This document shows positions 2,518-39,432 of a stretch of DNA of 64,000 nt, piece after piece. A program made the translations under genes and the position numbers. Position 1 is the stretch's first letter. Each line of letters opens with the position of its first letter. The stretch is from Belliella alkalica (GTDB lineage Bacteria; Bacteroidota; Bacteroidia; Cytophagales; Cyclobacteriaceae): contig NZ_JAKZGO010000002.1 in NCBI RefSeq assembly GCF_022549785.1, positions 186,001 to 250,000 of the forward strand, read 5' to 3'. The notes beneath the pieces are model-generated. The model worked only from the letters and a program-made list of their open reading frames with translations, was not told where the DNA came from and made no database searches.

Positions 2518-3213
2518 GCTAGCCTTTTCCGATTTGAAGGCCTTTTTTGCTACTATGTCTTCCAATAATATTCTTGCAGAATCGTACTCACTAGACTTTA
2601 CATAACTTAAAGATTGATACCATTTGTACCTATACAAAAGTAAGCTGTCTTTGACATTGTTGGGATTTAATACTTTTATAGCATTATTTACTTCTCCAAT
2701 AGCCAAATATGCAGAGCCAATATATAGATCTAGTCCCTCGTATTGCCCAGTTCCTTGCATGAGTAGAAGCAGCTCCAAGGCTTTGTCAAATTGCCCCTGT
2801 TCGTATGCGGTAAAAGCTTGCACAATCAATGTGTCCGATTCACCTCGGGTAATTGGGTAATGGATGTTTTCAGCTGGTGTGAAATAGGATAAAAATAGTT
2901 GATTAGCTTCAACTGGAGTTTTGTTGTACTTCAAGACAACTAATAGCATACTTATGATCAAAGCTGCCGCTACAGTTATTCTAAATAGCGTTCGTTGTAT
3001 GCTTTTTGTCCTTTGGTAAGCGTTTTCGTAACCTACTAATTTGGAACCTAATGCTTCCTCTTTTTCTAGAATTAGTGCTTTCTTTATACCTAGATGGAAA
3101 TTTAAATCTGCTTTGAACTCTGGGTCGGAGTCCATTAGCCTATGGAATTCTCTTTCCTCTTCCTTGGTTAGAGATTTCGTCAAGTATTGCTCTATTAGTT
3201 TTTGCTTATCCAT
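2488..3213 (-). CDS. Membrane anti-sigma-like protein with periplasmic TPRs
   Basis: This 241-residue protein has a cytoplasmic N-terminal part (about 1-75) that resembles short Bacteroidota anti-sigma domains (YLTKSLTKEEE, then DSDPEF). One transmembrane helix lies at about 78-95, and the C-terminal part has TPR-like repeats (AYEQGQFDKALELL, YIGSAYLAIGEVNNAIKVL). The motif PITRGE lies at 120-125, about 25 residues beyond the membrane, and recurs in the second anti-sigma of this window (30704-31462). The start codon overlaps the end of the upstream sigma gene by 8 bases, so the two are co-translated. The likely role is to hold the ECF sigma factor at the membrane. That is inferred from the pairing and layout, because the N-terminal domain has no diagnostic motif I can name. 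Confidence 0.75.
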   Translation of the reverse strand: MDKQKLIEQYLTKSLTKEEEREFHRLMDSDPEFKADLNFHLGIKKALILEKEEALGSKLVGYENAYQRTKSIQRTLFRITVAAALIISMLLVVLKYNKTPVEANQLFLSYFTPAENIHYPITRGESDTLIVQAFTAYEQGQFDKALELLLLMQGTGQYEGLDLYIGSAYLAIGEVNNAIKVLNPNNVKDSLLLYRYKWYQSLSYVKSSEYDSARILLEDIVAKKAFKSEKASLLLKKLPQD

Positions 3214-24238: not shown

Positions 24239-27200
24239 TTAGCGCATTTTTGCAACATGACCTACTCTAAATCTTCTGGTGAGAAAATAGATAGCTACCA
24301 AAGTTGCAATGCCTAGGAAGAAATAGAAAAAGTAATTTGGTTTGTCGCTTTCTACATCGCCAAGATAAACAAATCCTGCCCAGTAATATGGATGTGCTGT
24401 ATTTTCGTCAGCTTGTTGTAAATAGTCCAGTTTTGCATTTCTTATGGCCTCGCTATAGCTTTCACCATCATAAACTTTGTCATAAAAGGAAGTCATCAGT
24501 TTGCTGGTAGATTGGTCGGATACTGCCCAAAGGCTCATGAGTACATTTGGGACATTGGCATACATAAAACCTCTAGCCAAGCTGATGACACCTTCTCCCT
24601 GCTGGTGTTCTCCAAAGCCGGAATTGCATGCAGATAATGTGACAAGATCAGCATTGAGGTCCATTTCATAGAGCTCATGTGTGTAAAGAATTCCGTCTTC
24701 CTTGTCATCAGCTGATAATAGCAGACTGGAAAATAATGGATTATTGTTATCAATATGACTATGCGTTGCAAAATGCAGGATTTTGGAGTTTTTGCCTTCA
24801 TTTTTAAGATAGCTTTCTTTAGCTTCATTGCCATAATACCCTTTTCCAGAAAATTTCTTACTCAAAGAAGCTACCTCTTTTTCACTAAAAGGTAATGCAG
24901 TATATGAAGTCAAATCAAAATTATTGCTTCGCTCTGTTTGGGCTATAAAAAGTGGTTTACCCAACTCTTGGTAAGGAGCAAAACCTAAGAAATCCATCTC
25001 TTTTTTCTTTAAGGACACTCTTTCGAAATTAATTAAAGAGCTAGCATATTGATACGTAATGGTATGGTTTTTCAATAAATAATTGAATTTTTCAAAAGCA
25101 TTAGTTTCAGCAATTGGATTTTCAATTAAAATTTCAAAATTGATATGATTGAGTACACCATCAGGAATGATAATTATATGTTTAGAAGGCTCTACTTTTA
25201 GTACAGGCTCTATCAATTTCTGATACAAGTAATACGCTGAGGCTTGAAAATTTTTTGAATTTGGATTTTTGGAATCGTTTATGAACTTGTTGAGGTTATA
25301 GGTTAAGTTTTCATCTTTATCGATCTTCAATAGACCTTCTTTTTTACCTTTGAGGTAAATCAGTAAAAAATTAGCTTCAAATTCGATATATTGAACAACG
25401 AGCTTCTTGGATTCTCTCAATGATTTTGTCTGTTTAGTATCAAAGATACTTTCATTTGTAAAGTTTTGCCCGCCATACTGAAGGCTGTAATAGTTTGGGT
25501 AATTTGTTTTATAACTTGCCAATAGTTGATTCATTTCCTCTTTCTTTTTGACGATTAACTGAAGCGTAGAATCGTTTGAATCAGACTGTATTGCCTTAGT
25601 AAAGCTGTCCCTATAAATTTGCTGTTCAAGTAGATTAATTTCTGTTTTTAATTCAAGTTCCTTGGCTTGAAGTTCCGATGGAATTAAGCTTTGAGAAGCA
25701 TTGGATTTTTGATTTAAGTGATGTTTTAAGTTTGAGGACTTATTTAAGTCAGAAAGTAAATAAGCTTTTTCCCAATAAATTTTATCATTGGTTTTTCTGT
25801 ATAATGCTGTTGCTAGCTGAATGGCTTCAGCAAAATAGATGCTTTTTTGCTGTCCATACTGAGATTTGGATCGGATGTTAAAAATTGCGTTTTTACTTTT
25901 GTTCAACAATAAGATTCCAATAACATAAGCGTCCAATGATGAATTAAGCAAAGATGTATCATCAGTTAGTTCAGCTATTTTTTTAGTGATTTCACCTTTT
26001 TTTATAAAAAAGAATGCTGATTGATAACTGTCAGGTATAAGATCAAGAGGAGGATTGTCAACAATACCATTTTTCCAAGAGTAGGAAGGGATATAGCTTT
26101 TCAATGCTTGCAGTAATTTATTTTCTGCCAATTTTATTTCCTTGAGTTTTAGCTGAAATTCTGCATCTTCAAATAGATATTCTATATAATCATAGGTTTT
26201 TAATTGATTTGTTCGCTTGTAAAGTTTATCTATTTGATTAAAATAATTGGAAGCAGAATCTTTTTGGCCAATGTTAGAACTTAGTCGAGCCAAGATAGTA
26301 AGCATAGAGGGCATATCATCATTCACGTCTCCGTGAAGCATGGTTTTCAAAGCTACTGCTTGTTTGTAAAAATTTAAGCTTTGGGAAAGATTACCTTTTT
26401 TTTCTTCTATATCTCCTAAAATCAGATAGAAATAAATCATGTAGAAATGATCTTTATTGATTTTATAGAGCATTTCATATCCTCTTTTAGCATATTTTGA
26501 TGCATTTTCAAGATCTTCTGGAAACTCATTTTTGTAGGTATATACATAGGCGTAGTAAAGCGAAGTAATAATTACTTCTCCAGGTTGATCTTGCATATTC
26601 ATATTGACAAGATTTATTTCACTTTTCCTAAGACTTTCTAGGGCCTCTTGAAACTGCCCCATGTTCATTTTGGGCATAGCTTGATTTAAGTAAGCATTTT
26701 TTGCTAACTGACTTGCAGTATCGAGGCCAGATCTCTTCAGTACTGTTAGGCAACTATCATAATAGCGAAGTGATTGCTCGTTTTCTTTTAAATTATTGAG
26801 TAAAACTGCAAAATTATTATAGGCTCTTGCTAAACCCAATGTGTCATTTTTTCTCAAATAATCTAATTGTTCCTCATAGATTTCCTTACTGCTAATATAT
26901 TGACCCGCATCGTTCAAAAATGCGGCATAGCGATTATAAAAAATATTAATAATGTCCTTATTGGTCGTTTTTTTTGGTCGAATTACCTCTACGATCCCTT
27001 TTTTTAAATAATATAGTGCGCTATCAGAATTGTTTTCTAGATAATATGATGAGGATAAGAGTGACAAGCATTCCAGTTTTTCATCAAAATTCTGATTTTT
27101 ATCAAAGAAATTTTCCAGTTTCACCAATGCGTTTCTATTGCTGATCTCACTGCCGTATTTTGATTTGGTATGTGCTTTTATTGTGTCAAGCTTCGCTTTG

Positions 27201-27307
27201 TTTGAAAAATAAACATCACTATTCTTTGAAGAATTTTGCGCAAACGAATGCGTATTTAGGATAAACAATAATACCGAGATTACAATTGTGGTAGATTTAT
27301 AAATCAT
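24239..27307 (-). CDS. TPR-CHAT caspase-like protein, membrane anchored (second of operon)
   Basis: With the chosen start this is 1,022 residues; the frame is open for another 14 codons upstream, but only the start at 27307 gives a normal signal peptide (MIYKSTTIVISVLLF, cleaved after SFAQ). TPR-like helices fill about 30-500, with a linker of charged coiled coil. CHAT follows from about 640. Counting from 27307, the dyad is His849 (HFATHSH) and Cys894 (LSACNSG), then GEGVISLARGFMYANVPNVLMSLW and HPYYWAGFVYLGD. A single helix near the C-terminus (FFYFFLGIATLVAIYFL) is followed by a basic tail. TPR and CHAT should be periplasmic. It is the last gene of the sigma operon, paralogous to its neighbour. 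Confidence 0.9.
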   Translation of the reverse strand: MIYKSTTIVISVLLFILNTHSFAQNSSKNSDVYFSNKAKLDTIKAHTKSKYGSEISNRNALVKLENFFDKNQNFDEKLECLSLLSSSYYLENNSDSALYYLKKGIVEVIRPKKTTNKDIINIFYNRYAAFLNDAGQYISSKEIYEEQLDYLRKNDTLGLARAYNNFAVLLNNLKENEQSLRYYDSCLTVLKRSGLDTASQLAKNAYLNQAMPKMNMGQFQEALESLRKSEINLVNMNMQDQPGEVIITSLYYAYVYTYKNEFPEDLENASKYAKRGYEMLYKINKDHFYMIYFYLILGDIEEKKGNLSQSLNFYKQAVALKTMLHGDVNDDMPSMLTILARLSSNIGQKDSASNYFNQIDKLYKRTNQLKTYDYIEYLFEDAEFQLKLKEIKLAENKLLQALKSYIPSYSWKNGIVDNPPLDLIPDSYQSAFFFIKKGEITKKIAELTDDTSLLNSSLDAYVIGILLLNKSKNAIFNIRSKSQYGQQKSIYFAEAIQLATALYRKTNDKIYWEKAYLLSDLNKSSNLKHHLNQKSNASQSLIPSELQAKELELKTEINLLEQQIYRDSFTKAIQSDSNDSTLQLIVKKKEEMNQLLASYKTNYPNYYSLQYGGQNFTNESIFDTKQTKSLRESKKLVVQYIEFEANFLLIYLKGKKEGLLKIDKDENLTYNLNKFINDSKNPNSKNFQASAYYLYQKLIEPVLKVEPSKHIIIIPDGVLNHINFEILIENPIAETNAFEKFNYLLKNHTITYQYASSLINFERVSLKKKEMDFLGFAPYQELGKPLFIAQTERSNNFDLTSYTALPFSEKEVASLSKKFSGKGYYGNEAKESYLKNEGKNSKILHFATHSHIDNNNPLFSSLLLSADDKEDGILYTHELYEMDLNADLVTLSACNSGFGEHQQGEGVISLARGFMYANVPNVLMSLWAVSDQSTSKLMTSFYDKVYDGESYSEAIRNAKLDYLQQADENTAHPYYWAGFVYLGDVESDKPNYFFYFFLGIATLVAIYFLTRRFRVGHVAKMR

Positions 27308-27600
27308 TATGATGATGATTTTGGTCAAACATAATTTAAGTAAAGTCAATTTTTTAAGTAGAAAGGACAGAGGGATAAGCGTGTTATTTAATCCAAGAAA
27401 AAATGTTTTGGTGTAATTTAAATCTTGGATGTTTGTTTGGGCGATGTTCCTATTTGTCTCTATGACTCAAGTATCAATATAGGTACTTCCAATATCCTAA
27501 TGTCCCAAAGACCGATTTTCTAATGCATCTCTCTTCTGGTTTTTTTCATTTGTGTTTCAACTGCCATATCCAAGGTGCCTTGAATCCTTGTGCTTAAAGT

Positions 27601-30600
27601 CTAAATTTTCGTTGCCTTCATGAAGAATCTCCTGTACGCGAAGATAAATGCGATAATCAACAGTACTGCAATAAAGGAATAGCGTAAATAGTTAGATTTT
27701 TCTGCTTCTACATCGCCTACATATATAAATGCAGCCCAATAATAAGGATGAGCAGTATTTTCATCTGCTTGAACCAAGTAGTCCAATTTGGCTTCTCTAA
27801 TTGCTGCTTCATAAGGTTCTCCTTTCTTTATTTTTTCATAAAATCCAGTCATAAGCTTTTTGGTCGATAGATCTGGGATAGCCCAAAGGCTCATCAATAG
27901 ATTTGAAACATTTGCGTACATAAATGCTCTGCCTATACTGATGATTCCTTCACCTTTTTGATATTCACCTGTGCCTGAATTACACGCTGACAAGATCACT
28001 AGATTAGCATTTAACTTGAGATTAAATAATTCATAGCTGTGTAAATAGCCATCATCAAGTTCATTTTCCATCAAAACAAGACTGGAAAGTAAGGGGTTAC
28101 TGTTGTTGATTTGGCTATGGGTAGCCAAATGGATTATATCAGCCGCAGAAGCATATTCTTTGAACTTACTTTCTTGTGCATCTGAGGCTAACAAAATGGT
28201 AGAATTGAACCCAACTGAAATTTCATTGACTTCAGCTGCATTATTTGGCAATGAAGCGAATGATTCACGCGTTATCTCAGTTGATTTCCCATTGGTATTT
28301 TCTGAAATACCAGCATATGAAGGTGCAATCCCCAGGAAATTCACTTTTTTTCCTGATTTTGTAGGACTCTTTGTATTCTTTAAGAGAAAGGCAGAATAAT
28401 GATAAGATATTTGATGTTTTTTGATTAAATATGGAAGGTTTTTGAGGTTTTGTTCTGTCATTGGCGGTTCGCTGATCAATACTTCAAAAGGTATAAGAGC
28501 CAATTCACCATCAGGAATTATGATGATTTTTTCTACATCAATATTCTTCAAAACGGGGTCTAAAAGGGTAGAGTATATCCTAAAACTGGGGCTAATAAAA
28601 TCATTGTTTTTTTCTTTTATGGAAACCAAAAGTATTTCTATATCACTTTTTAGTTGAGATGTTTTTGGGATTTTCAAATAGTTGGTTTTTCCTCTATGGG
28701 TATAAAAGGCATAATACTCCGTTCCGAAATCTTGAAATTGAATGAGCAGATGATTTGAATTACTTACGCTCAAAGGTAATTTGGCTGGGATCAACTCATT
28801 TTCTGTATCATAAATATTTCCATATTTAAGTGAGTAGTAATTGGGGTGATCTTTTTTATATGTTGAAATTAATGACTCCAAATCTGATTTTGTTTGGAAA
28901 TAGGCTTCATTACTTTTATCAACTAAATAGAATTCTTCGGGAAGCTTATCTTCATTTGGCTCGGGCTGTCCATATCCTACAACTTCAAATTCCAACAATT
29001 TCGAGCGAAGTGAGTATTCCAGCTCCAACAAATCTTCAGGAACTCCTGTAACATCAAGTTTTGCAGTGTAAAAAGCTTCTCTTATAGCCAAAGTTTTTGA
29101 GAAATCAGACAAAAGTATGCTTTTGTCAAGATACTTGTTATCACCACTGATGTCAAAAAGTTGATTACTGATCAAAATGGTTTCTTGAACTAAGTCATAA
29201 TTTGAAGAGTAAATGTTTGACTTGGATCGAAGTCCATATATGCCTTTTTTGGTTTTCAAAGATTGCCTGATAGAAAGTAAATAGGATTCCAAGGCTCCTT
29301 CAAGATATTTCTTGTCATTATTCAAAGAATATAGCTTGGCAAGAACCCTCCCTTTTCTTGAGAAAAAATCTATTAGAAAATCCTTGCCTGATAATTCTTG
29401 AAAAGGTGGGTTATACAAAACTGGTTTTCCTTCTATCCCTAAAAATGCTTTTGTTGCTTTTTGGATTTGAGCTTCTGCGCCTTTGGGATTGTTTTTTTTC
29501 AATTCAAATTCAGCTTGGTCAAATAGCAATAGACCATAGGAATCCCGAATAATGTTGTTAGGCTTTTCAAATTGTCTGATGGCTTTATCCCTGTAATCTT
29601 GCTCCAGAGTTTGATTTCCAAGTGCTTTATAGATTTTGGAATATTTCAAATAGGTATCTGCCAGATTTGGTCTGTCTTCTCCATATGCCTCAAGTTGAAA
29701 TTTTTCAGCTTTTTTTGTAAAATACAAGGCAGAATCATAATTGCCTACCACAAAATATGCACTTGTAAATTCGTTATAGTATTCCAAAAGTTTGGGATCG
29801 AGGGGGTACTCTTTCTGGAATTGGTCATAGTTCCTTTTTAGATATTGAAGGGCAATCTGACCATCTCCCTGATCTTTCTTTCTACTCGAATACACATTGG
29901 CAAAAATCAAATCCAATGGGAACCTGTCCATAATATGGCTATATTGGTCAGGAATATTGTTTCTTATTGTTTCAGATTGCTTAAGGTGTTCAATAGCCTG
30001 ATCATGGATTCCCAAGATGCTATATATCAATGCGATGTTGGAGTGGACCATCTCACCAAGCATGGAATTCATTTCAACTTTGTCCTTTCTTAGAATTACC
30101 AGACAGCTATCATAGTATCTCAGTGATTGTTCATTGTCGTTGATACTTTTATAGACAGTGGCGACATTGTTATAAGTCTTGGCTATATACTCGTTGTTTT
30201 GGTTGTCAAGGTTGTTCGATTTCAAAAAATTGAGAGATTTTAAGAAATATTCAGCTGACTTGTTGTACTCATTTTTTCCTGCCAACATAGCTGCATAGGT
30301 ACTTCGCACCATATTCACCAGCCGCATGTTTGTAGAAGTATTGTTGTCTAATACATCATTAGCTTTTGAATGGTAAAAATCAGCAGAATCCAACTTGTTT
30401 TGCCTGTGAAAGCTCGTGCCATGCAAGGTGAAAGTATATGCTAGTCGGTCGGTTGCATTTACTTTACCAAAATAATCTGCCAAGGAATTGAGAATTTCTC
30501 GTCCTTCCTCCATTTTAATTTCCTGTCTCGCGAGCTGTACAGCCGTTGCGTCCAACAAATCTGATTTTTGCCAGTACAGCGTGCTATCTATGGAAGCATT

Positions 30601-30675
30601 TTGCTGAGCGTTTGCATCTTGATTTATCATATCAAGAAGAAAAATCAAAGAAATAAAAGCTAAAACTCTAATCAT
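27601..30675 (-). CDS. TPR-CHAT caspase-like protein, membrane anchored (first of operon)
   Basis: A full-length 1,024-residue paralogue of the next gene. It has a signal peptide (1-23, ending DANAQ), TPR-like repeats to about residue 500 (for example YFLKSLNFLKSNN, SLRYYDSCLVILRK), a helical linker and a CHAT domain from about 650. The dyad is His853 (HLATHSQ) and Cys898 (LSACNSG), with the same 45-residue spacing as the neighbour. The end is HPYYWAAFIYVGD plus one membrane helix and a basic tail. The repeat segment SLRYYDSCL is shared word for word with the neighbour. It starts 28 bases after the anti-sigma stop codon, so sigma, anti-sigma and CHAT form one unit. Confidence 0.92.
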   Translation of the reverse strand: MIRVLAFISLIFLLDMINQDANAQQNASIDSTLYWQKSDLLDATAVQLARQEIKMEEGREILNSLADYFGKVNATDRLAYTFTLHGTSFHRQNKLDSADFYHSKANDVLDNNTSTNMRLVNMVRSTYAAMLAGKNEYNKSAEYFLKSLNFLKSNNLDNQNNEYIAKTYNNVATVYKSINDNEQSLRYYDSCLVILRKDKVEMNSMLGEMVHSNIALIYSILGIHDQAIEHLKQSETIRNNIPDQYSHIMDRFPLDLIFANVYSSRKKDQGDGQIALQYLKRNYDQFQKEYPLDPKLLEYYNEFTSAYFVVGNYDSALYFTKKAEKFQLEAYGEDRPNLADTYLKYSKIYKALGNQTLEQDYRDKAIRQFEKPNNIIRDSYGLLLFDQAEFELKKNNPKGAEAQIQKATKAFLGIEGKPVLYNPPFQELSGKDFLIDFFSRKGRVLAKLYSLNNDKKYLEGALESYLLSIRQSLKTKKGIYGLRSKSNIYSSNYDLVQETILISNQLFDISGDNKYLDKSILLSDFSKTLAIREAFYTAKLDVTGVPEDLLELEYSLRSKLLEFEVVGYGQPEPNEDKLPEEFYLVDKSNEAYFQTKSDLESLISTYKKDHPNYYSLKYGNIYDTENELIPAKLPLSVSNSNHLLIQFQDFGTEYYAFYTHRGKTNYLKIPKTSQLKSDIEILLVSIKEKNNDFISPSFRIYSTLLDPVLKNIDVEKIIIIPDGELALIPFEVLISEPPMTEQNLKNLPYLIKKHQISYHYSAFLLKNTKSPTKSGKKVNFLGIAPSYAGISENTNGKSTEITRESFASLPNNAAEVNEISVGFNSTILLASDAQESKFKEYASAADIIHLATHSQINNSNPLLSSLVLMENELDDGYLHSYELFNLKLNANLVILSACNSGTGEYQKGEGIISIGRAFMYANVSNLLMSLWAIPDLSTKKLMTGFYEKIKKGEPYEAAIREAKLDYLVQADENTAHPYYWAAFIYVGDVEAEKSNYLRYSFIAVLLIIAFIFAYRRFFMKATKI

Positions 30676-30703
30676 GCCATTTTAAGTTTGGAGAAAAATA
30701 TCC

Positions 30704-31462
30704 TCAATCTAATTTCAATAATAGTCTCTCTACCTCTTCCATCTTATACCCACTGCTTTTTCTGAGTTTTACCAACTCTTCTTTGCCTTTGATTGAATCT
30801 CCTTTCACCAAATAACTCAAGGCCATGTACCATTTTGCTTGGTCTCGGAACTGCATTCCTTCTGAATATAGATAACTTTCAAATAGCATATTGGCACTGT
30901 CATATTGCTCCAATTCTATTTTGGTGATGCCTCTATAGAATAGGATATATTCTTTTTGCTGGTTTTTAAGTTCAGCAAAAAGGCTGTCAGCTTGCTTAAA
31001 ATCACTACTCTCATATGCAATAAATGCGGCAATTTCCAATTCTTCTGGATTGACTATTTCTCCTCTTGTGATCGGTTTTACAACATTTGGGTACGGCTCG
31101 TAGAATGCATAGAAATTTTGTGAAATTTCATCATCTGATTGTGATGTAGATGTTTTGACAAAATAGGTGACTGCTAAGATCGAAATCAGAGCAGCTGCGA
31201 CAGCCATTATTGACCAAAGTCTTCTGGATTTTGGCTTGGCAGTCGATTTTTCAGATTCCTGAATGTCATTTTCTATTTTGTTCAAAAATCCTTTCAACAC
31301 TTTTCTTTGATTGTTTTGAAAAGCCAGCTTTGTTTTTTGCTGAAATACTACCTCTTCCTTGAATAGAGGGTCTGATTCAAGCAAATCTTCAAAAACCTCT
31401 CTTTCTGAATCAGAAAGATTACCTTCGAAATATTTAATTATAAGTTCTTCGTGGATACTCAT
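30704..31462 (-). CDS. Membrane anti-sigma-like protein with periplasmic TPRs
   Basis: A 252-residue protein built like the one at 2488-3213. The cytoplasmic head has YFEGNLSDSEREVFEDLLESDPLF, and a membrane helix lies at about 84-102. The motif PITRGE is at 130-135, about 28 residues beyond the helix and just after FYEPYPNVV. TPR-like helices follow (AFIAYESSDFKQADSLF, YRGITKIELEQYDSANMLF). Its start overlaps the sigma stop by 4 bases (ATGA). The head sequence fits the general shape of Bacteroidota anti-sigmas (a short helical segment ending in DP.F). Sequestration of the neighbouring sigma is inferred from this layout. Confidence 0.78.
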   Translation of the reverse strand: MSIHEELIIKYFEGNLSDSEREVFEDLLESDPLFKEEVVFQQKTKLAFQNNQRKVLKGFLNKIENDIQESEKSTAKPKSRRLWSIMAVAAALISILAVTYFVKTSTSQSDDEISQNFYAFYEPYPNVVKPITRGEIVNPEELEIAAFIAYESSDFKQADSLFAELKNQQKEYILFYRGITKIELEQYDSANMLFESYLYSEGMQFRDQAKWYMALSYLVKGDSIKGKEELVKLRKSSGYKMEEVERLLLKLD

Positions 31463-32019
31463 CTGTTTTTAAGCTTAAGTTCTATAGACTCTCTTAGGGA
31501 TTTTAGACATCTTGATTTTTGACTCTTTACTACGTCAGTGTGGTTGTAAGCTAATAGCACTTGGATCTCCGCTATTTTTTTCTCTTCATAATAAAAGAGC
31601 CGAAGCAATTCCTGGCATTTCTTTCCCAATGATTCTAGGGCATTTTCCAATAGAATCACTTGTGGATCTTTTTCATCAATAAATTCAAAGCTTTCGACCA
31701 AACCTTCAAAAAGATCTTGATCATTTTCAATGTCTATAAAGTCAGTATTTGAATTTTTTTTCAAGCGGGTGAAGAGCATGAATTTTCCCATACTGAAAAG
31801 GTATGTTTTTAGGCTTCCACTCGATAACTGCAGTTTTTGCTTCATTGATTTTTCATACAAAGCAATGATCACATCTTGATAGATATCGCAGATCTGATTC
31901 TTATCTGTATGGTACTTTAAAGCAAACTGGATAAAAGGAGCCCTGTATTTCCTATAAATTTCTTCTAGAGCGGTATTGTCCCCTAGTGACAGCCGGTCCA
32001 ATAAATTGTTATCCATCAT
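31459..32019 (-). CDS. ECF-type RNA polymerase sigma factor
   Basis: A 186-residue sigma-70 family protein. Region 2 lies at about 20-90 (YRKYRAPFIQFALKYH, CDIYQDVIIALYEKS, SLKTYLFSMGKFMLFTRLKK). Region 4 lies at about 125-180 (LGKKCQELLRLFYYEEKKIAEIQ, then VVKSQKSRCLKSLRESIE). It is the first gene of the operon sigma, anti-sigma, CHAT, CHAT. The start follows a 428-base gap holding repeat copy D; no promoter was identified. It is a relative of the sigma at 3206-3751, which suggests that the two loci are copies of one system. Confidence 0.9.
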   Translation of the reverse strand: MMDNNLLDRLSLGDNTALEEIYRKYRAPFIQFALKYHTDKNQICDIYQDVIIALYEKSMKQKLQLSSGSLKTYLFSMGKFMLFTRLKKNSNTDFIDIENDQDLFEGLVESFEFIDEKDPQVILLENALESLGKKCQELLRLFYYEEKKIAEIQVLLAYNHTDVVKSQKSRCLKSLRESIELKLKNR

Positions 32020-32263
32020 TTTTTAGTCTTAAAAGTGGCAGTTTAGTAAACATAATAATAAAAGTTTTACGAGATGTTTACTTTTCAAATTAAAAGCTGA
32101 CTAAGCTTAAAATAATATGAGAATATCTTGATTTTGTTCAAAACACATTCAGAATGTTCTATAAAGGTTAGTTTGTCAGGTGTTTATGTGTCTCAAGAAA
32201 TCTTAATACTAAAAACTTCTTTGACTCAATTTATTGAGGAATTCGATCAAACCAAATTTCTAA

Positions 32264-32447: not shown

Positions 32448-32951
32448 ATGAAAAAAGCTACATTAACATTGTTGACAGCTATGATGCTTTTTGGGATTTC
32501 AGCCCAAGCTCAAACTGTAAAAGGAGGAATTACCATAGGGAAATCTTCAGAATTGAAAATCGAAATGAAATCAGACAACCTGATTGATTTATTTGTCGAT
32601 TTTAGAAAAGAAAAATATCCGATTGTGTTCTCTTTTCAAGGTGATAACCTCAAAAGCAAAGAGGGTAGAGAGATCATTTTTTTCGACTTTATTACGGAAG
32701 TTTATTTCAATGGTAAGTTGATTGGCAAAGCCAGCAGAAACCCCATTCCTTACATTCCTGGTGACATGATTATCGGTACAGAAGGTTTTGATTTCATTTC
32801 TTTGCTGGGTTTCAACGAAATGACCAAACCCTCTATCAAAGAGACTCCTGGGAAACTTCCTGCAGGTAGCTATCAAGTAAAACTGATAGCCAAACCATTG
32901 GATTTTAAAGGGCAAATCAGGCCTGCCATTTTTTCATTTTTAGTTAAATAA
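32448..32951 (+). CDS. Secreted protein of unknown function
   Basis: A 167-residue protein with a signal peptide (MKKATLTLLTAMMLFGISAQAQ). The mature part is beta-rich (ITIGKSSELKIEMKSD, YPIVFSFQGDNL, GSYQVKLIAKPLDF) with no domain I recognise. It is the first gene of a three-gene unit with a beta-barrel protein 15 bases downstream and a lipoprotein that overlaps the barrel gene. The unit probably acts at the outer membrane; nothing more can be said. Confidence 0.7.
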   Translation: MKKATLTLLTAMMLFGISAQAQTVKGGITIGKSSELKIEMKSDNLIDLFVDFRKEKYPIVFSFQGDNLKSKEGREIIFFDFITEVYFNGKLIGKASRNPIPYIPGDMIIGTEGFDFISLLGFNEMTKPSIKETPGKLPAGSYQVKLIAKPLDFKGQIRPAIFSFLVK

Positions 32952-32966
32952 CAAACCAATTGAATC

Positions 32967-33467
32967 ATGAAAAAGAATATTCTCCTATTAGCAATTACTT
33001 TATTTTCCTTTGTAAGTACACTGAGTGCCCAGGATACCAGACGGATTGGAGGCCAGATTATTTATGGCTCCAATTTAGAAGCTTTAGGATTAGGGGTGAT
33101 AGGCGAACTTCCCGTAGCGCCAAAGATGGTTATTTCCCCAAGTTTCTCATTTTATTTTCCAAAAGATCAGGGGTTTGTCAAACAATCAGCTTGGGAATTG
33201 AATGGCAATCTGAATTATATTTTCATTGAGGATGACAATTTGGTCTTTTACGGAATCGGTGGTCTAAATTATACAAATATCAGGGTCAAGTCTGATATTC
33301 CTGGACTGGGTAATTTCTCAAATTCTGTTGGGAGAGTTGGGCTTAATCTAGGTGCAGGTGCCAATTTTGACATAGGTATGAGTTTTCTTCCTTTTGCCGA
33401 AATCAAGTACATTCTTGGTGATTTTGACAGATTGGTAATAGGGGCTGGAATCAAATTCAATTTGTAA
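32967..33467 (+). CDS. Small outer-membrane beta-barrel protein
   Basis: A 166-residue protein with signal peptide ending near LSAQ (21). The rest alternates polar and non-polar residues in the pattern of an eight-strand barrel (GQIIYGSNLEALGLGVIG, VISPSFSFYFPK, WELNGNLNYIF, GLNLGAGANFDIGM) and ends IGAGIKFNL, the usual C-terminal strand with a terminal hydrophobic residue. It resembles Bacteroidota outer membrane beta-barrel proteins of the OmpW/OprF-like type. The start is 15 bases after the preceding stop and its stop overlaps the next start by one base (TAATG). Confidence 0.78.
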   Translation: MKKNILLLAITLFSFVSTLSAQDTRRIGGQIIYGSNLEALGLGVIGELPVAPKMVISPSFSFYFPKDQGFVKQSAWELNGNLNYIFIEDDNLVFYGIGGLNYTNIRVKSDIPGLGNFSNSVGRVGLNLGAGANFDIGMSFLPFAEIKYILGDFDRLVIGAGIKFNL

Positions 33468-33979
33468 TGAGAAAGTTAATCTACCTATCGCTAATTTTTG
33501 GGCTATTCATTTCCTTGAGCGCATGTTCTGATGCTCCCACATTGGATAAGCCCAACACTTATGAAGTGAATTTTCCAATTGATAAATATAATGGCGTTAT
33601 TCCTGATGGAGAAATTTCAGCATCCTACGTAGAGGCCGATTTGGGATCTGGCATTATCCGAACGATCAGTTTATCATTTATGGATGGGGATTTATCTGTG
33701 GTGATGCTGATAATGATGAATGGAAATCAGGCATTGCCAATTAGGGGAGAAGATGAAGAGTTTGGGAGTTTTGTGATCATAGACACCCTGGGAGAAAATC
33801 CTGAGGGAAGATTTTTGAGTATCCAAGGAACAGTAACTGCCACAAATATCAAGGCTACTGCTCTTAGTGCCTCTACAGGCTTCTTGACAGGTGACTTTAC
33901 ATTTTCCGGTCAATTCGTCAAAGCACTTGATCCTGAAGGTGATCGTACGCCAATAACTGGACGGGTTTCATTTGATTAA
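33467..33979 (+). CDS. Predicted lipoprotein of unknown function
   Basis: A 170-residue lipoprotein with lipobox SLSAC. The mature part is beta-rich (ASYVEADLGSGIIRTISLSF, FLTGDFTFSGQFVKAL). No family is recognised. It is the last gene of the unit 32448-33979, translationally coupled to the barrel gene by the one-base overlap TAATG, and is followed by a terminator hairpin at 33990. Confidence 0.7.
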   Translation: MRKLIYLSLIFGLFISLSACSDAPTLDKPNTYEVNFPIDKYNGVIPDGEISASYVEADLGSGIIRTISLSFMDGDLSVVMLIMMNGNQALPIRGEDEEFGSFVIIDTLGENPEGRFLSIQGTVTATNIKATALSASTGFLTGDFTFSGQFVKALDPEGDRTPITGRVSFD

Positions 33980-33989
33980 ATACTTGTAA

Positions 33990-34028
33990 AGGCTATTGGT
34001 TTAAGAATTTAGAACAATAGCCTTTTTT
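33990..34028 (+). terminator. Intrinsic terminator
   Basis: AGGCTATTG and CAATAGCCT pair around a 15-base loop and TTTTTT follows. It ends the three-gene unit 32448-33979. Confidence 0.85.
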
Positions 34029-34141
34029 AATTTCCATCACTATTGTCAGACAATCTCAAATGAAATTATGGGCATAACGCGATGAATGTTTACCCAATTT
34101 AAGTTTTGGAGACTAAGAGACAACAACCAAAATTAAACAAG

Positions 34142-34957
34142 ATGAAGAATTCAATAAAGAACAAAATTGTATTGACATCCTGCTGCCTATTTTTTCTAAT
34201 CAGCCAAGGAGAAAGTCAAATCATGAAAAAACTGACTGATAAACTTGGTCAGAAAGCGATAAGCGAATCAACTGAATCTGTAAAAAAGAAGCATGAAAAA
34301 AATCCGTTTGAGGAGATGTTTTCTGGAGATGGAGGAATGGATCTGTCGGGTATGTTGGGAGGTTCGAGTGATTACAAGGCTCCAGAAAGTTACAGCTTTG
34401 ATTTTCAAGTGACTATGAGAATGTCTATGGAAAAAGGCAAGCCAATGACCCAAATATGGAAGTACAATACGAAGGAGGGGTATTTAGGAATGGAAAACGG
34501 CGGAGTGCTGATAATCTACGATATCGATAGTGATGTGATGGTGACCATAGACCCCAAAGGAAAAAGTTATACTGCGATGTCTACAAAGTTGCTGGGGACC
34601 ATTAGTGGAAATTTAGAGGAAGAGGATGAAGATAGTATTCCAGAGATGATCAAAACCAACGAAACAAAGACAATACTTGGTTATAAAGCCACAAAGTATA
34701 TGATGGAGGATGATCAATTGAAAGGAGAGTTTTGGATGGCTCCAGAAGTTCCTTTTGACCAATCTTCGATGACAAAATCCATCAATTCATTCGGCAAAAA
34801 ACCAACACCACTTCCCGGTAAGATGCAAGGATTCATGATGGAAATGCAGGCTTATGACAAGAAAAGTAAAAGCACTTCGAACATGGAGGTAATCCAGCTT
34901 GGGGCTATCAATGAAGTGATAGCGATGAAACAGTACAAAAATGGAATGGCATTCTAA
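34142..34957 (+). CDS. Secreted DUF4412-like protein
   Basis: With the start at 34142 the protein has 271 residues and a signal peptide (MKNSIKNKIVLTSCCLFFLI, cleaved near GESQ). The frame is open from 34106, but that start would put 12 polar residues before the signal. A short charged helix is followed by a beta-rich part with the repeating 'read-out' pattern of DUF4412 proteins (MTQIWKYNTKEGYLGM, MVTIDPKGKSYTAMS, LGYKATKYMMED, FWMAPEVPFD). The family is periplasmic or outer-membrane associated; its role is unknown. The next gene starts 11 bases downstream. Confidence 0.72.
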   Translation: MKNSIKNKIVLTSCCLFFLISQGESQIMKKLTDKLGQKAISESTESVKKKHEKNPFEEMFSGDGGMDLSGMLGGSSDYKAPESYSFDFQVTMRMSMEKGKPMTQIWKYNTKEGYLGMENGGVLIIYDIDSDVMVTIDPKGKSYTAMSTKLLGTISGNLEEEDEDSIPEMIKTNETKTILGYKATKYMMEDDQLKGEFWMAPEVPFDQSSMTKSINSFGKKPTPLPGKMQGFMMEMQAYDKKSKSTSNMEVIQLGAINEVIAMKQYKNGMAF

Positions 34958-34968
34958 CTATTATCACA

Positions 34969-35673
34969 ATGAAAACAATAGCAATCGCACTCAATCTATC
35001 GCTACTATTGGCAGCATCCATGTGTGGCTCAAACTCTGAAGAAAAAAGCATATTTGGGAGTTCATCAAATAATAAAGCTGATCATTCATGTCTGTTGGAA
35101 TATACAGGAGAAAATACGGGTAAGTTTTTTACAGAGGAATTGATATCGGATTTGGCAAATGGCAACCCTATCGCTGCAGATCATTACGAACGTCGAAATA
35201 TGTATAAATACTCTTGGAAAGAGGATGGTATTATCCATTTTATTGGCTTCGATGATATGGAAACTGCAGAGAAGCTTCGGCTAAAAAGAAACGATAAAAA
35301 CAAAGACATCCCAAACCTAGTAGTGGATTATACTAAGAATAATTATCGTGACAAAACCCCCGAAGAAGTCGAGAGATTAAATAAACTTATCAATGATGAA
35401 CTTGAGAAATCAAAGGATCCAAATGCCAATGCAAGTTCCAATAAGACACTTCAGAGCACTGTCATGTCAATGCAGCAAAATTCATACATCACATTAGACA
35501 CAAAAGCTGATTATGCAGTTTACAATAAAAGGGGCTTTGGAGTATATGTTGTCGTAGGTGAGGTCTTACTTTCATTAAGTGCTCAGGTAGGGCCATATGG
35601 CTCTGTCGATGAAGAGAAAAGTATAGAACTAGCCAGAAAATTGGCTGATAAAGTGGCTACAATATGCAAATGA
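34969..35673 (+). CDS. Predicted lipoprotein of unknown function
   Basis: A 234-residue protein with a signal ending LAASMCGSN, which fits a lipobox (Cys19). The mature part is mostly helical and charged, with a final beta-like segment (YITLDTKADYAVYNKRGFGVYVVVGEVLLSL). No family is recognised. Its stop overlaps the next start by 4 bases (ATGA), so the two are co-translated; it starts 11 bases after the DUF4412-like gene. Confidence 0.62.
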   Translation: MKTIAIALNLSLLLAASMCGSNSEEKSIFGSSSNNKADHSCLLEYTGENTGKFFTEELISDLANGNPIAADHYERRNMYKYSWKEDGIIHFIGFDDMETAEKLRLKRNDKNKDIPNLVVDYTKNNYRDKTPEEVERLNKLINDELEKSKDPNANASSNKTLQSTVMSMQQNSYITLDTKADYAVYNKRGFGVYVVVGEVLLSLSAQVGPYGSVDEEKSIELARKLADKVATICK

Positions 35674-36239
35674 TATATTTTATAGCAGCTCTTTTTATGA
35701 CAGCTCAGACTACTGGCTGTGCAAAGAAAAAAGACTTTGTTCAGGATCAATCGATTCAACATACAGAATTCAATATTGTACATTTAGAAGTAGGTGGAGA
35801 AGTAGTTTTTGATTCTACAAAAATGACTCATTCAAATCTATCTATTTATCCCAATCAGTTGATGTTTACTGTTATGGATGATGAAGGACAAAATATCACA
35901 ATCACCTTTGCGGGCAAAGACATTTCACAAAGAAAACCTGAAGCACTTACCTTCGATTCCCCTGGTTTATTTCATGGATTTTCTAATGCACAAGATGTTT
36001 TTTTTATAGCATTCGGAAAACTTGCCTCTGATAGAGAGCCTGGACAGTTGAAGTATGAGCGTCATTTACCCCAGCTGATCATGCAAGGCGAATTGAAGGT
36101 AATATCTTGGACTGATAGCGTTTTTGAATTCAGTTTTGAAGGTAAGCTGGGTGAAGAAAACCAAGTGAACACTCCTGAAAGTTGGCTCCCGTTTTCTGGT
36201 AGTATCAAAGCCGCCTCTTATCAACAATACAATGAATGA
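35670..36239 (+). CDS. Predicted lipoprotein of unknown function
   Basis: With the start at 35670 (overlapping the previous stop as ATGA) the protein has 189 residues; an ATG at 35664 adds two more. The signal ends TAQTTGC, a weak lipobox. The mature part is beta-rich (VHLEVGGEVVFDSTKM, NITITFAGKDIS, FEFSFEGKLGEEN). It looks like the small Bacteroidota lipoproteins with unknown calycin- or sandwich-like folds. It closes the unit 34142-36239. Confidence 0.62.
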   Translation: MIYFIAALFMTAQTTGCAKKKDFVQDQSIQHTEFNIVHLEVGGEVVFDSTKMTHSNLSIYPNQLMFTVMDDEGQNITITFAGKDISQRKPEALTFDSPGLFHGFSNAQDVFFIAFGKLASDREPGQLKYERHLPQLIMQGELKVISWTDSVFEFSFEGKLGEENQVNTPESWLPFSGSIKAASYQQYNE

Positions 36240-36449
36240 TTATAGTTTTTAGTGATCTAATTTGATTAGGATACTGATTTTAGACTCCTGATTATTTCTA
36301 GGAAAACAGAAAAAAGAGTTGTAAGCAATTAACATTTCTATTTTCTATTTCAATCCACTTTCCATCAATTATCTATAGCAACAGAACCCAGATTCGATAG
36401 AATTTATCGAATGCATGGACTTGCTATGCCATGTTTAAATTAAAATATT

Positions 36450-37847
36450 ATGCAAAAATCAATCAAATTACTTTTCTCCCTCTTTCTTCTCCTGCTAGGG
36501 ATGAAGTCAGTATCTGCCCAAGAATGGACAGGGACCTGGAACTCCACCTTTGGAGAGTTTAGGCTGCATCAAGTTGATAACCAAGTTTTTGGTGATTATG
36601 CCAATGTCGGAGTACTTTATGGTGGCGTCAGTATCGATGCCTCGGGAAATAGATTTATCGAAGGGACATTTGAAAACTACAGTAGTAGAAGAAACGGTGT
36701 CTTCAAATTCAGAATTGACCCGAGCAATTCTGAAAAATTTATCGGTGAATGGACTTTCAATAGCCCGACATCATGGTCTAGTTGGTCAGGAAATAGGACT
36801 AGCAAGACTAAGCCAGCCCTACGGAGTTTTTATCGAGTGACTGGAAGGTCGCATGACAAAGATTGGAAAGCGATAAATGAAAATTATGATGTCAGATTCA
36901 AGAAAGATGGCATAGCTCACTTTCATACAAAGGGAGTAAATGGCACCTACAACTTTCTCTTGCCAAAAGGGGACTGGGAGATGGAAGTCAAAAAACAGGG
37001 TTTCAGAGACTATAATGGTGTAATAGAAGTAAAGGATAGGTATCCTAATCAGAATCAGTACTTTTTGCATCAGTTTCAGTTGATCCCTGCTGGGAATGTT
37101 TCGATTGGGGCATTAGATAGGAATGCTATTCCACGAGGTTCTGAAATACAGGTTGTAGAAGCTGCTCGATCAAGCAGTATACAGACTGACTTATTAATCA
37201 ATTCAAATTCAAATGTCCAAGGCAAAACCTACGTGGTATTGGATAATCAAGGAGAGCTCGGTTACATTCAAGTATCGGGAGATCCACCAAATGCTATTAG
37301 CAATCAATTTAGAAAAATCACTAATTACCCGGCTTCCGCACCTATTTCCTTTAGCATCTCTCCTGATGCGGCAATGGTGGCAAAAGTTCACCAATCTGGT
37401 TCGGTCAATGCAGATAAACTGGAAATATACAATTTGAGTGGTGTACTTCAGGGGTCACTCTCTCCTCAAGAGTTGAGGAATATGGTCGCAAAAAGAAGTA
37501 TTCCTTTGAAGCGCGGTGAATTGGTGACTATCAAAAAAGTCACTTTTAGAAACAACACCGACGTCATAGTAGATGCAGATGCTGTGCTAAGCAGTGGAGG
37601 CTCCACACTCAAATGGGTAGTGATATTAAGATTCAATAGAACAACCAAAAGATTTACAATGATTGAATCTATAGAGGGAACTTTCGGCAGATTCACTGAG
37701 ACCAATTCCAGAATAGATTTGGCTAACAAGAGCAAATATCAGTTTGGAACTGACAAAGCTTCCCAAAAAATCAAATTCAACAATAACCAAATTTCGGTTG
37801 GGAATAATGTAAGGTTTGAAAAAGGGGACTACACTACACTTAATTAA
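36450..37847 (+). CDS. Secreted protein with N-terminal sandwich and PEGA/carboxypeptidase-regulatory-like middle
   Basis: A 465-residue protein with a signal peptide ending SVSAQ (24). The first part (25-110; WTGTWNSTFGEFRLHQVDN, FIGEWTF) has the look of a lipocalin or avidin-like sandwich. The middle (about 115-205) contains VNGTYNFLLPKGDWEMEVKKQGFRD..., the pattern of a carboxypeptidase-regulatory-like or PEGA repeat. The C-terminal 220 residues are beta-rich and unrecognised. It starts a two-gene unit; the next gene begins 22 bases downstream. Function unknown. Confidence 0.65.
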   Translation: MQKSIKLLFSLFLLLLGMKSVSAQEWTGTWNSTFGEFRLHQVDNQVFGDYANVGVLYGGVSIDASGNRFIEGTFENYSSRRNGVFKFRIDPSNSEKFIGEWTFNSPTSWSSWSGNRTSKTKPALRSFYRVTGRSHDKDWKAINENYDVRFKKDGIAHFHTKGVNGTYNFLLPKGDWEMEVKKQGFRDYNGVIEVKDRYPNQNQYFLHQFQLIPAGNVSIGALDRNAIPRGSEIQVVEAARSSSIQTDLLINSNSNVQGKTYVVLDNQGELGYIQVSGDPPNAISNQFRKITNYPASAPISFSISPDAAMVAKVHQSGSVNADKLEIYNLSGVLQGSLSPQELRNMVAKRSIPLKRGELVTIKKVTFRNNTDVIVDADAVLSSGGSTLKWVVILRFNRTTKRFTMIESIEGTFGRFTETNSRIDLANKSKYQFGTDKASQKIKFNNNQISVGNNVRFEKGDYTTLN

Positions 37848-37869
37848 TAACAATATAAATACTATAATA

Positions 37870-39432
37870 ATGAAGAATGTTAAACTTATATTGATGATGA
37901 CTCTTCTATGTATGACATGGAGTTTCATGAGTTTTGCTCAGCAAAGAGGAATAGATGAAAAATATAATTTTTCGGGAAGTTTCAACAGAGTGAGAGGCAC
38001 CCAGTCTTGTTTATTTACAGCTAACCAAACAGGTAACAAGGTAGTCGGGAGGATAAATTTTTCTGATCCAAGAGTACAAGGAAACTATACAGGGACGATT
38101 ACTAATGGGGTAGTCCATGCAACTATCACTTGGGTCTCTGCTCCTGATGACCTCAAAAAAGCTACATTTTTGAGATTACAGAAATTCACAGGTAGGGATT
38201 TCCCTGAACTCTCTTTGTTTGATAATGCGAGTTACAAAACCAATAATAGAGTTCGCCCAAAAATAGTCTATGCTTTAGAGAAAAAAGTATTTGGTAGCAC
38301 TTCCACGACTGCACAAAATAATCCTAGTTCGGTTGCAAATTCAATTTCGAAAGCAGCAAGAGACATCGGAGGATATTACCGCATCGAAGGAATGACAGAC
38401 GCTACCGGGACTAAAAGAAACTTATTCGTGAATGTTAAAAATTTCCCGGACAATAAAGATAAAAGTAAGGCATACGGAGAAGCTTTGATAATTGGTGAGG
38501 CCTATGGTATAGGTTCTCCACAGGGCAAACTTTTTGGCTATGAAACTAATGGAGATAATGTTACTGTCATGTTCGATCCAATTTTTGAGCAGAATAAAAA
38601 AGTCACAATGGCTAATGGCAGGATCGTCAATACCTCTGGAGGGATGTCGCTTGTCGCTCCAAGATTGGCATACAGGATGGTGAAAATCACGAAAGAAATT
38701 GCCGAAAGAGAGGGGAATAAACTCAATTCTATGGTCACAGTAAGAATAGATTATAAATTTATCTATGTCAATGAATCACTGGCTTGGTGGAGAAATAAAT
38801 CAACCCTGAATCACTTAAGTGGTGACGTGAATAAATTGGAGATTTATGGCACAGGAGATATTAAAGCAACAAGTGAAACGGCTTCCAGAACAACTGGAAT
38901 TCCCTTTTTAAACAACCTGAATAATCGTGTTTTTGATATCCCCTCTTCCCGCCCTTTTACTAAATATCAAAGAATGTATTATGATGAACAAAAAAAACTG
39001 GCTTGGGGTGGGGAAAGAGCTCACTTATTGTTGGGTTTTTTTAAGTTTGCAAAAGATGCTGAATTACCTAACCCTGATAAGCCGGGAAATGCGATTATCC
39101 CAGTGAATTATAAAAGAGAATTTGTTGTAAGTAAAGATGCCTTAAGCCCAAATACCACAAATAGAGTAGGAATAGAAGTGTCAACAAATCTTATTCAGAA
39201 GAGAACTAGTGGTGATGTTCAAATGGGTAAGGCTGTTAGGAAAATATACCTACATGAACTAAACGATCCTAACAAATTAAATATCGATGACAAAATGTAT
39301 AACAACATTTATAACAAAGACACCAAAAATCCAATTGGAATGGTTGAAAAACCATATTACTACATAGGTATTTCTAGAGGTCAAATAAGTCTTCATTATC
39401 TAGTGATGTTTACAATAGAAATAATCGAGTAG
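37870..39432 (+). CDS. Secreted protein of unknown function
   Basis: The start at 37870 gives 520 residues and a normal signal peptide (MKNVKLILMMTLLCMTWSF, cleaved near SFAQ); an upstream ATG at 37816 overlaps the preceding gene and would bury the signal. The mature part is beta-rich with sandwich-like strands near the start (FSGSFNRVRGTQSCLFTANQ) and an aromatic-rich later part (LAWWRNKSTLNHLSGDVNKLEIYG). No family is recognised. Probably co-transcribed with the preceding gene. Repeat copy C lies downstream. Confidence 0.62.
   Translation: MKNVKLILMMTLLCMTWSFMSFAQQRGIDEKYNFSGSFNRVRGTQSCLFTANQTGNKVVGRINFSDPRVQGNYTGTITNGVVHATITWVSAPDDLKKATFLRLQKFTGRDFPELSLFDNASYKTNNRVRPKIVYALEKKVFGSTSTTAQNNPSSVANSISKAARDIGGYYRIEGMTDATGTKRNLFVNVKNFPDNKDKSKAYGEALIIGEAYGIGSPQGKLFGYETNGDNVTVMFDPIFEQNKKVTMANGRIVNTSGGMSLVAPRLAYRMVKITKEIAEREGNKLNSMVTVRIDYKFIYVNESLAWWRNKSTLNHLSGDVNKLEIYGTGDIKATSETASRTTGIPFLNNLNNRVFDIPSSRPFTKYQRMYYDEQKKLAWGGERAHLLLGFFKFAKDAELPNPDKPGNAIIPVNYKREFVVSKDALSPNTTNRVGIEVSTNLIQKRTSGDVQMGKAVRKIYLHELNDPNKLNIDDKMYNNIYNKDTKNPIGMVEKPYYYIGISRGQISLHYLVMFTIEIIE

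Follow-up and report, generated by a model that had tools for sequence, protein, structure and literature searches.

Exported CHAT proteins as candidate site-1 proteases for the membrane anti-sigma factors encoded beside them in Belliella alkalica and other Bacteroidota

The stretch of DNA that we analyzed (hereafter the window) comprises 64,000 nucleotides of Belliella alkalica (Genome Taxonomy Database lineage Bacteria; Bacteroidota; Bacteroidia; Cytophagales; Cyclobacteriaceae; assembly GCF_022549785.1, contig NZ_JAKZGO010000002.1, positions 186,001 to 250,000, forward strand). It carries a minus-strand cassette in which the genes for an extracytoplasmic function (ECF) sigma factor, a putative anti-sigma factor with one membrane helix, and two large CHAT-domain proteins, CHAT2 and then CHAT1, follow each other. 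Taking the evidence as a whole, we think it probable that the CHAT protein serves as a periplasmic site-1 protease, cutting the anti-sigma after Arg133 and thereby starting the release of the sigma.

Under this proposal, CHAT1 and CHAT2 would be exported, separase-like cysteine proteases that are anchored in the inner membrane and face the periplasm. A signal would be sensed either by the TPR domain of the CHAT protein or by the TPR-like domain of the anti-sigma, and the CHAT domain would then make the site-1 cleavage, in the periplasmic juxtamembrane loop of the anti-sigma after Arg133 (KPIT-R↓G-E), with a pocket containing Glu815 of CHAT2 setting the P1 residue. General proteases (a site-2 intramembrane protease and Clp) would finish the anti-sigma, and the freed sigma would transcribe its targets, perhaps including a divergent run of genes that begins at 32448.

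A first-pass annotation of this DNA, made from the sequence by itself, had described the cassette (24239-32019) as an operon, and its reading frames, strands, and spacing hold exactly: the sigma and anti-sigma genes overlap by 4 bases, 28 bases separate the anti-sigma gene from CHAT2, and 293 bases separate CHAT2 from CHAT1. The second copy that it had noted is likewise present at 1-3751, where a sigma/anti-sigma pair (2488-3751) runs against a third CHAT gene, CHAT3, with the anti-sigma gene overlapping the 3' end of CHAT3 by 30 bases. The three CHAT proteins are CHAT-family putative proteases, as judged from PF12770 scores of 202.9 (CHAT1), 193.8 (CHAT2), and 154.5 bits (CHAT3) against a cut-off of 24 and from the His/Cys dyad, which all three possess (Table 1), as the annotation had said. 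Both dyad residues recur in 127 of the 128 CHATs of our held-out set, the remaining one being unaligned there.

The two sigmas pass the TIGR02937 sigma70-ECF model (53.3 bits for the first and 44.9 for the second; cut-off, 42.9). Both fall below the cut-off for Pfam sigma-70 region 2 (20.1 and 15.3 of 24 bits), and for region 4 the first is below the cut-off (18.1 of 25.7 bits) and the second has no match. We predict that the first anti-sigma is a one-helix membrane anti-sigma, with putative sigma binding and inhibition, given that its gene lies directly downstream of the sigma and that it has one transmembrane (TM) helix and an N-terminal helical domain. It scores below the cut-off of the NF052375 antisigma model (3e-07; 30.7 of 100 bits) and has no PHROGs match and no Pfam TPR match of its own; the profile of its family matches TPR proteins.

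The signal peptides and C-terminal helices that the annotation had proposed are borne out in the two complete window CHATs, CHAT1 and CHAT2, each of which has a signal-like N-terminus and a C-terminal hydrophobic helix. By hydropathy, 142 of 158 CHATs of at least 800 amino acids (aa) combine an N-terminal hydrophobic segment with a C-terminal TM helix, the charge is more positive after the C-terminal helix in 139 of the 149 CHATs having such a helix, and a membrane helix is found in 162 of the 165 anti-sigmas that we paired with CHATs. Given this predicted topology, the functional parts of CHAT and anti-sigma would meet in the periplasm, an arrangement that fits stepwise site-1/site-2 proteolysis. 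AlphaFold2 modeled both proteins with predicted local distance difference test (pLDDT) scores of 87.9 for the anti-sigma and 86.1 for CHAT2, the latter with a predicted TM-score (pTM) of 0.85.

The B. alkalica genome holds four CHAT matches, and all four adjoin the three ECF sigmas with the highest scores against the window sigma (self, 2.4e-118; then 4.1e-39 and 4.6e-19; next sigma, 2.8e-10), which makes the finding one of a repeated cassette and not of a single operon. A further set elsewhere in this genome (L006) also converges tail to tail. In 26 relatives from this family, a CHAT gene is found no more than 6 kb from 14 of the top 20 sigma-profile matches and from 35 of the first 118 sigma matches listed; 2000 random placements, made with genome sizes rounded and contig ends disregarded, gave a mean of 1.2 and a maximum of 6. 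The adjacency of sigma and CHAT is not a product of chance, and the neighbor pairing on which the first-pass annotation had staked its proposal is kept in related genomes. Of the six CHAT-less sigmas among those top 20, four (L029, L032, L033, and L034) are accompanied by short anti-sigmas, only 101-111 aa long, which stop at the membrane helix and so lack a periplasmic part, and their fetched pieces contain no CHAT.

Seen from the CHAT side, at least 34 of 96 CHATs have one of the 118 listed sigmas within 6 kb; in the window's family, 121 of 148 genomes have CHAT proteins. With the anti-sigma profile as query, 279 of 395 genomes in the phylum had a match at E ≤ 1e-8; several of the low-scoring matches listed were confined to the TPR part. 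We examined 90 anti-sigma loci (the first 82 matches listed other than the window's own, plus 8 from lower down). A sigma lies immediately upstream in 80 of them, and 55 include a CHAT within the piece of about 12.7 kb; CHAT coordinates add 13 within about 7 kb, so that at least 68 of the 90 have a nearby CHAT. The 10 genomes of genus g93 that we searched have at most one CHAT each, and in 8 of them it lies no more than 6.3 kb from the anti-sigma (one is at 12 kb, and one genome has none). We also chose loci by CHAT alone, taking the best 80 of 536 confirmed with a narrower CHAT profile, and found the sigma/anti-sigma pair in 46 of them, one (L256) with only a 73-aa fragment. These loci include records from Lewinella, Aquimarina, Kordia, Roseivirga, Myroides, and Saprospiraceae, and one comes from a Thermoanaerobaculia metagenome-assembled genome (MAG; L248; Acidobacteriota).

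The window's order of sigma, anti-sigma, CHAT, and CHAT is found again in G552 (L155). All four orientations occur among the 165 pairs: 87 converge, 36 of these with an overlap at the 3' ends, and in 38 the CHAT gene follows downstream on the same strand. At two loci (L165:2280-8498 and L169:2280-8498), a single frame of 2072 aa beside the anti-sigma encodes two CHAT domains, one per half, separated by hydrophobic segments. This natural fusion suggests joint action of the two tandem CHATs in the window.

While the anti-sigmas are mostly 17-29% identical to that of the window, most contain the consensus P-[TVI]-[TV]-R-[GS], on average about 27 residues outside the membrane helix. An Arg stands at the aligned site in 132 of the 165 pairs, followed by Gly in 64 and by Ser in 44. 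AlphaFold places Arg133 of the window anti-sigma in a 21-residue coil (121-141) between helices 111-120 and 142-151.

We then asked which CHAT residues vary with this Arg. A first scan compared the CHAT partners of Arg-type and Met-type anti-sigmas over 327 well-filled columns, leaving aside loci with a CHAT fragment of <600 aa in the piece (among them L043, L054, and L087). Among the 76 Arg-type rows, 73 have Glu in the column of CHAT2 Glu815 (the others being two gaps and one His), against none of six Met-type rows, by far the largest difference in acidic fraction; the next column reached 0.42. All six Met-type CHATs also have Glu at the place of CHAT2 Asp935 and Gly at that of Ala851, which may be further S1 wall residues or may represent a simple clade difference.

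Joint counts are given here in the order Glu with Arg, neither, Glu without Arg, and Arg without Glu. They are 70/13/0/0 in the 83 rows with complete CHATs, and a CHAT tree of these rows built without the Glu815 column has three changes each of Glu and Arg, on well-supported branches. In a held-out set scored with frozen models and without hand edits (85 rows and 84 loci, L172 being present twice), the counts are 64/12/7/2; here, the number of Met-type cases should not be read as a frequency, because six loci (L187-L192) out of the 40 taken by anti-sigma had been picked for their probable Met type. Identity to a training anti-sigma exceeds 70% for eight of 83 held-out anti-sigmas and is complete for none. 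By eye, the seven cases of Glu without Arg are an Arg slightly off its column (L209, L228, and L245), a Lys (L199, L226, and L263), and the fragment L256, and of the two cases of Arg without Glu, L182 has Asp, and L159 has Thr and is a true exception. For all 165 pairs, with six site letters set by eye, the counts are 135/25/3/2, with five pairs discordant.

The letters set by eye were those of L209, L228, L245, L036, L069, and L102 in the 165-pair table, and those of L036, L069, L105, and the Met and Leu types in the first scan, which were carried into the 83-row table. Pairs with incomplete or edge-cut CHATs (L095, L105, L115, L118, L133, and L135) were omitted from the 83-row, 165-pair, and mutual-information sets, and L256 was omitted from the last two. 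The window anti-sigma was counted twice in the 83-row table, with CHAT1 and with CHAT2, and once in the other two sets.

In a mutual-information scan with average-product correction, the Arg/Glu pair ranks 2nd of 77,154 column pairs. Each of the four top column pairs includes anti-sigma position 127, 130, or 134 (L023 numbering), which are juxtamembrane, and three of the four involve CHAT positions 815, 851, or 934, near His853 and Asp935. Furthermore, of the 23 genomes for which several pairs are listed, 10 carry both kinds, and in all 10 each CHAT matches its own neighbor. Pairs in which the Glu is replaced mostly have Met, Leu, or Lys at the site, and this would help to separate parallel pathways within one cell.

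The CHAT2 model places Glu815 in helix 812-820, after strand 779-784. Secondary structure and literature together suggest that this is the place of the acidic residue that binds P1-Arg in clan CD, which is Asp163 of gingipain R and Asp365 of MALT1, both in alpha1; for separase, a glutamate between beta1 and alpha1 has been proposed for P1-Arg from a model (PMC4626109; PMC4357240). We searched solved structures with a profile of the CHAT domain only, full-length CHAT and anti-sigma profiles being swamped by TPR proteins. In the resulting alignment, four Craspase TPR-CHAT chains, which we take to be those of the Leu-cutting Scalindua enzyme, have a gap at the place of Glu815. Craspases cut after Ala, Leu, or Met (PMC11106740).

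The first Foldseek matches to the CHAT2 model were DdvA, Craspase TPR-CHAT, and human separase (TM-scores, 0.2 to 0.6), and the matches listed include separase-securin structures. Securin holds separase as a pseudo-substrate, and control might similarly run in reverse here, with the anti-sigma loop holding CHAT inactive, the sigma/anti-sigma pair sensing the status of CHAT, and CHAT acting as the effector. A loop that is bound and left uncut would give the same covariation. However, the Gly or Ser that follows 108 of the 132 site Args makes for an ordinary, cuttable P1' position, and the distance of the loop from the TM helix is what we would expect of site-1 cleavage; we therefore consider such reverse control unlikely.

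Several observations weigh against cleavage by CHAT, and some of them are what one would see if CHAT were a mere target or co-regulated neighbor of the sigma, with another protease cutting the anti-sigma and CHAT cutting other periplasmic proteins. In 34 of the 80 loci chosen by CHAT, some of them on short contigs, no pair was seen. Glu is present in all 34 held-out CHATs of loci without a pair, which means that it is not specific to this pathway and that the covariation signal lies in the departures from Glu; the joint Glu/Arg state could also be co-inherited in a few clades. Against CHAT as a bystander stand the four best column pairs, all at juxtamembrane anti-sigma columns and three with CHAT positions 815, 851, or 934, and the agreement of each CHAT with its own neighbor in the genomes that carry both kinds. 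We judge the bystander explanation to be rather improbable.

A second group of doubts concerns ancestry. CHAT columns 729, 809, 851, 896, 916, and 935 are likewise conserved among Arg-type CHATs and differ in the Met-type ones, as clade ancestry alone would give, and Glu815 was singled out among them for its charge. Because these columns behave likewise, the six Met-type rows, which form one clade, prove little by themselves. Linkage and motif could then be nothing more than the shared descent of one compact cassette, without functional meaning, and the overlapping convergent 3' ends do show how compact the cassettes are. Yet the orientation of the genes varies in all four ways, and Arg, Glu, His, and Cys are mostly kept while the proteins diverge to about 20% identity, so that we regard descent alone as very unlikely.

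Cleavage by CHAT, which we continue to prefer, also has to accommodate the small number of changes. On the 165-row tree, Glu changes only about five times: in a clade of 18 (Met or Leu at the site), in L250 (Met), in a clade of 3 (Lys), in a further clade of 3 (Met, by eye), and in L159/L182, where two long branches meet and the join is unsure. The change coincides with loss of Arg in four of the five events, while the last (Thr in L159 and Asp in L182) keeps the Arg. With so few joint changes, sign tests on independent pairs are not significant. The 57 held-out pairs whose anti-sigmas share no more than 40% identity with a training one give 48/1/6/2; among these distant pairs, Glu predicts Arg well, and the non-Glu side is barely probed, with two of its three cases disagreeing. 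The margin of the second-ranked column pair is small (z 5.63, with the top eight at 5.66 to 5.09), and a gappy CHAT column, 792, pairs with many anti-sigma columns in what looks like noise. By eye, L199, L226, and L263 have Lys beside CHATs that keep the Glu, whereas a clade with Lys at the site lacks it.

The proposal does not account for two CHATs beside one anti-sigma, and the Arg is kept with no CHAT nearby in the anti-sigmas of L024, L028, L063, L064, and L108, although a CHAT elsewhere in the genome may serve those of L024 and L028 in trans. As a negative control, we inspected the anti-sigmas of the five genomes without a CHAT match among 29 (G082, G391, G309, G218, and G426). The control is weak, since two of the five (L083 and L104; by eye) still have the Arg-Gly motif. 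The four short anti-sigmas beside CHAT-less sigmas (L029, L032, L033, and L034) make a better one.

The central proposal of the first-pass annotation, that an outward-facing CHAT acts on the sigma through the anti-sigma, thus gains a conserved neighborhood, a predicted topology, residue covariation, and a named site, and it is from these that we infer the cleavage itself. We are also inclined, on balance, to extend this to a large family in Bacteroidota, with at least one locus in an Acidobacteriota MAG. Its exported, separase-like CHATs would be dedicated site-1 proteases of ECF anti-sigmas; coexisting pathways would be kept apart by pairs of pocket and cut site (Glu with Arg, and variants with Met, Leu, or Lys), and tandem or fused CHATs would form a two-headed sensor.

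Coordinates of the features in both cassettes are collected in Table 1. The start of CHAT1 is counted from an ATG, and an upstream TTG at 27349 is a possible alternative. CHAT3 begins 543 bases before the window (L005:9458), with a hydrophobic N-terminus.

Table 1. Genes, catalytic residues, and predicted cut sites of the two cassettes in the window
Feature	Coordinates	Strand	Evidence
First ECF sigma factor, 186 aa	31459..32019	-	TIGR02937 2.5e-14, above cut-off
First anti-sigma (putative), 252 aa: N-terminal helices, one TM helix (~83-105), loop 121-141, TPR-like helices	30704..31462	-	
Predicted cut site R133↓G134 in KPITRGE of first anti-sigma	31061..31066	-	Arg codon 31064-31066; conserved, covarying
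CHAT2, TPR-CHAT, 1024 aa; N-terminal signal-like segment, C-terminal TM	27601..30675	-	PF12770 5.5e-57
CHAT2 Glu815, proposed S1 residue for P1-Arg	28231..28233	-	
CHAT2 His853 codon, dyad	28117..28119	-	Invariant across 51 aligned CHAT rows
CHAT2 Cys898 codon, dyad	27982..27984	-	Invariant across 51 aligned CHAT rows
CHAT1, TPR-CHAT, 1022 aa; Glu811, His849, Cys894	24239..27307	-	PF12770 9.6e-60
CHAT3, 3' part of 1019-aa TPR-CHAT gene; Glu635, His673, Cys716 (window numbering)	1..2517	+	PF12770 5.4e-45
Second anti-sigma (putative), 241 aa; predicted cut site R123↓G124, Arg codon 2845-2847	2488..3213	-	
Second ECF sigma, 181 aa	3206..3751	-	TIGR02937 9.1e-12, above cut-off
Divergent run of small, by eye mostly secreted, proteins; candidate target genes	32448..39432	+	

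The divergent run starts 428 bases from the sigma start and contains one match to an outer membrane protein beta-barrel, below the cut-off, and one DUF4412; its other proteins have no Pfam match. By eye, it also adjoins the sigma in L023 and L024, and L024 has the sigma, anti-sigma, and divergent run with no CHAT in the fetched piece. Similar small secreted proteins (by eye; 167 and 171 aa) are encoded beside both sets, at 32448-32951 of the window, in the divergent run, and at L005:7554-8069, upstream of CHAT3. The stretch 31990-32150 upstream of the sigma is conserved among three species of the genus (the window, L023, and L024). It may hold an autoregulated promoter; a promoter and terminator scan gave no signal clearly above shuffled sequences.

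Control of sigma factors by CHAT proteins is already known for Craspase, proposed for ECF54, and suggested for DdvA, and the annotation went too far in supposing that such a use of CHAT was undescribed. In the Craspase system of type III-E CRISPR (Csx29/Csx30/CASP-sigma), the TPR-CHAT protein Csx29 cleaves Csx30, the inhibitor of an ECF sigma (PMC10028731). Craspase, which both Foldseek and the profile search matched, resembles the window cassettes in having a TPR-CHAT protease that acts on an ECF sigma inhibitor, but it is switched by Cas7-11 and target RNA, whereas the window CHATs have signal-like and TM segments. Csx30 presumably has no membrane helix, and the Craspase protease presumably has neither an export signal nor a membrane anchor, unlike the CHATs of the window. 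PADLOC gave no match for six proteins, with no search aimed at gRAMP/Cas7-11 or Csx30/Csx31, and the second sigma reaches only 30 of 100 bits with NF041236 CAS_III-E_sigma. The Craspase sites (A↓S, L↓D, and M↓K) are described as not conserved; the Jettenia enzyme tolerates single site substitutions, and P1 changes affect others mildly or severely (PMC11106740).

DdvA was the first Foldseek match by E-value, yet with a TM-score of 0.21 to 0.25. Its structures (PDB 8rot and 8rw5), which we take from the name to be of a Myxococcus xanthus protein, are titled transmembrane anti-sigma factor, with the molecule name CHAT domain-containing protein; going by these two labels, DdvA unites CHAT and anti-sigma in a single chain, whereas the window encodes them in separate genes. 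DdvS of M. xanthus is an ECF sigma that is active when DdvA is inactivated (PMC4374960), and among the papers listed in our searches we found none on the mechanism of DdvA. ECF54 sigmas, like that of the window, have CHAT proteins in their genetic context, and proteolytic control has been proposed for them; they are described there as having no anti-sigma, whereas the window sigma has a membrane anti-sigma as the next gene (PMC8999054).

The system is a variant of protease-controlled anti-sigma systems. With RseA and DegS, the first cut of the membrane anti-sigma is the trigger, and RseP and ClpXP follow (PMC10028731). The same kind of trigger is proposed for the window, but with a separase-like cysteine protease that would prefer P1-Arg. 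DegS is a serine protease outside clan CD. CalpL, CalpT, and CalpS likewise act as a set of protease, anti-sigma, and ECF sigma, although CalpL is of the Lon type and is switched by cyclic tetra-adenylate (PMC11417357). Separase has the caspase-like fold, P1-Arg, and a proposed acidic S1 residue (PMC4626109) that we propose for the CHATs, but it is eukaryotic and cuts Scc1, with no link to a sigma; it matched the CHAT2 model with a Foldseek E-value of 9.4e-13 and TM-scores of 0.19 to 0.28. For a separate exported CHAT beside a membrane anti-sigma, we found no account among the open-licence papers listed in our searches, and an earlier one may exist.

To our knowledge, most CHAT proteins have no known substrate. 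If our proposal is true, many of them would gain a named substrate and cut site, as well as a role in envelope signaling outside CRISPR and cell death, and a single residue would predict CHAT specificity. The predicted cut site is sharp enough for testing by co-expression in Escherichia coli. Craspase, ECF54, DdvA, and the cassettes described here would then be joined in one theme, with CHAT proteases as the keys of ECF sigma factors.

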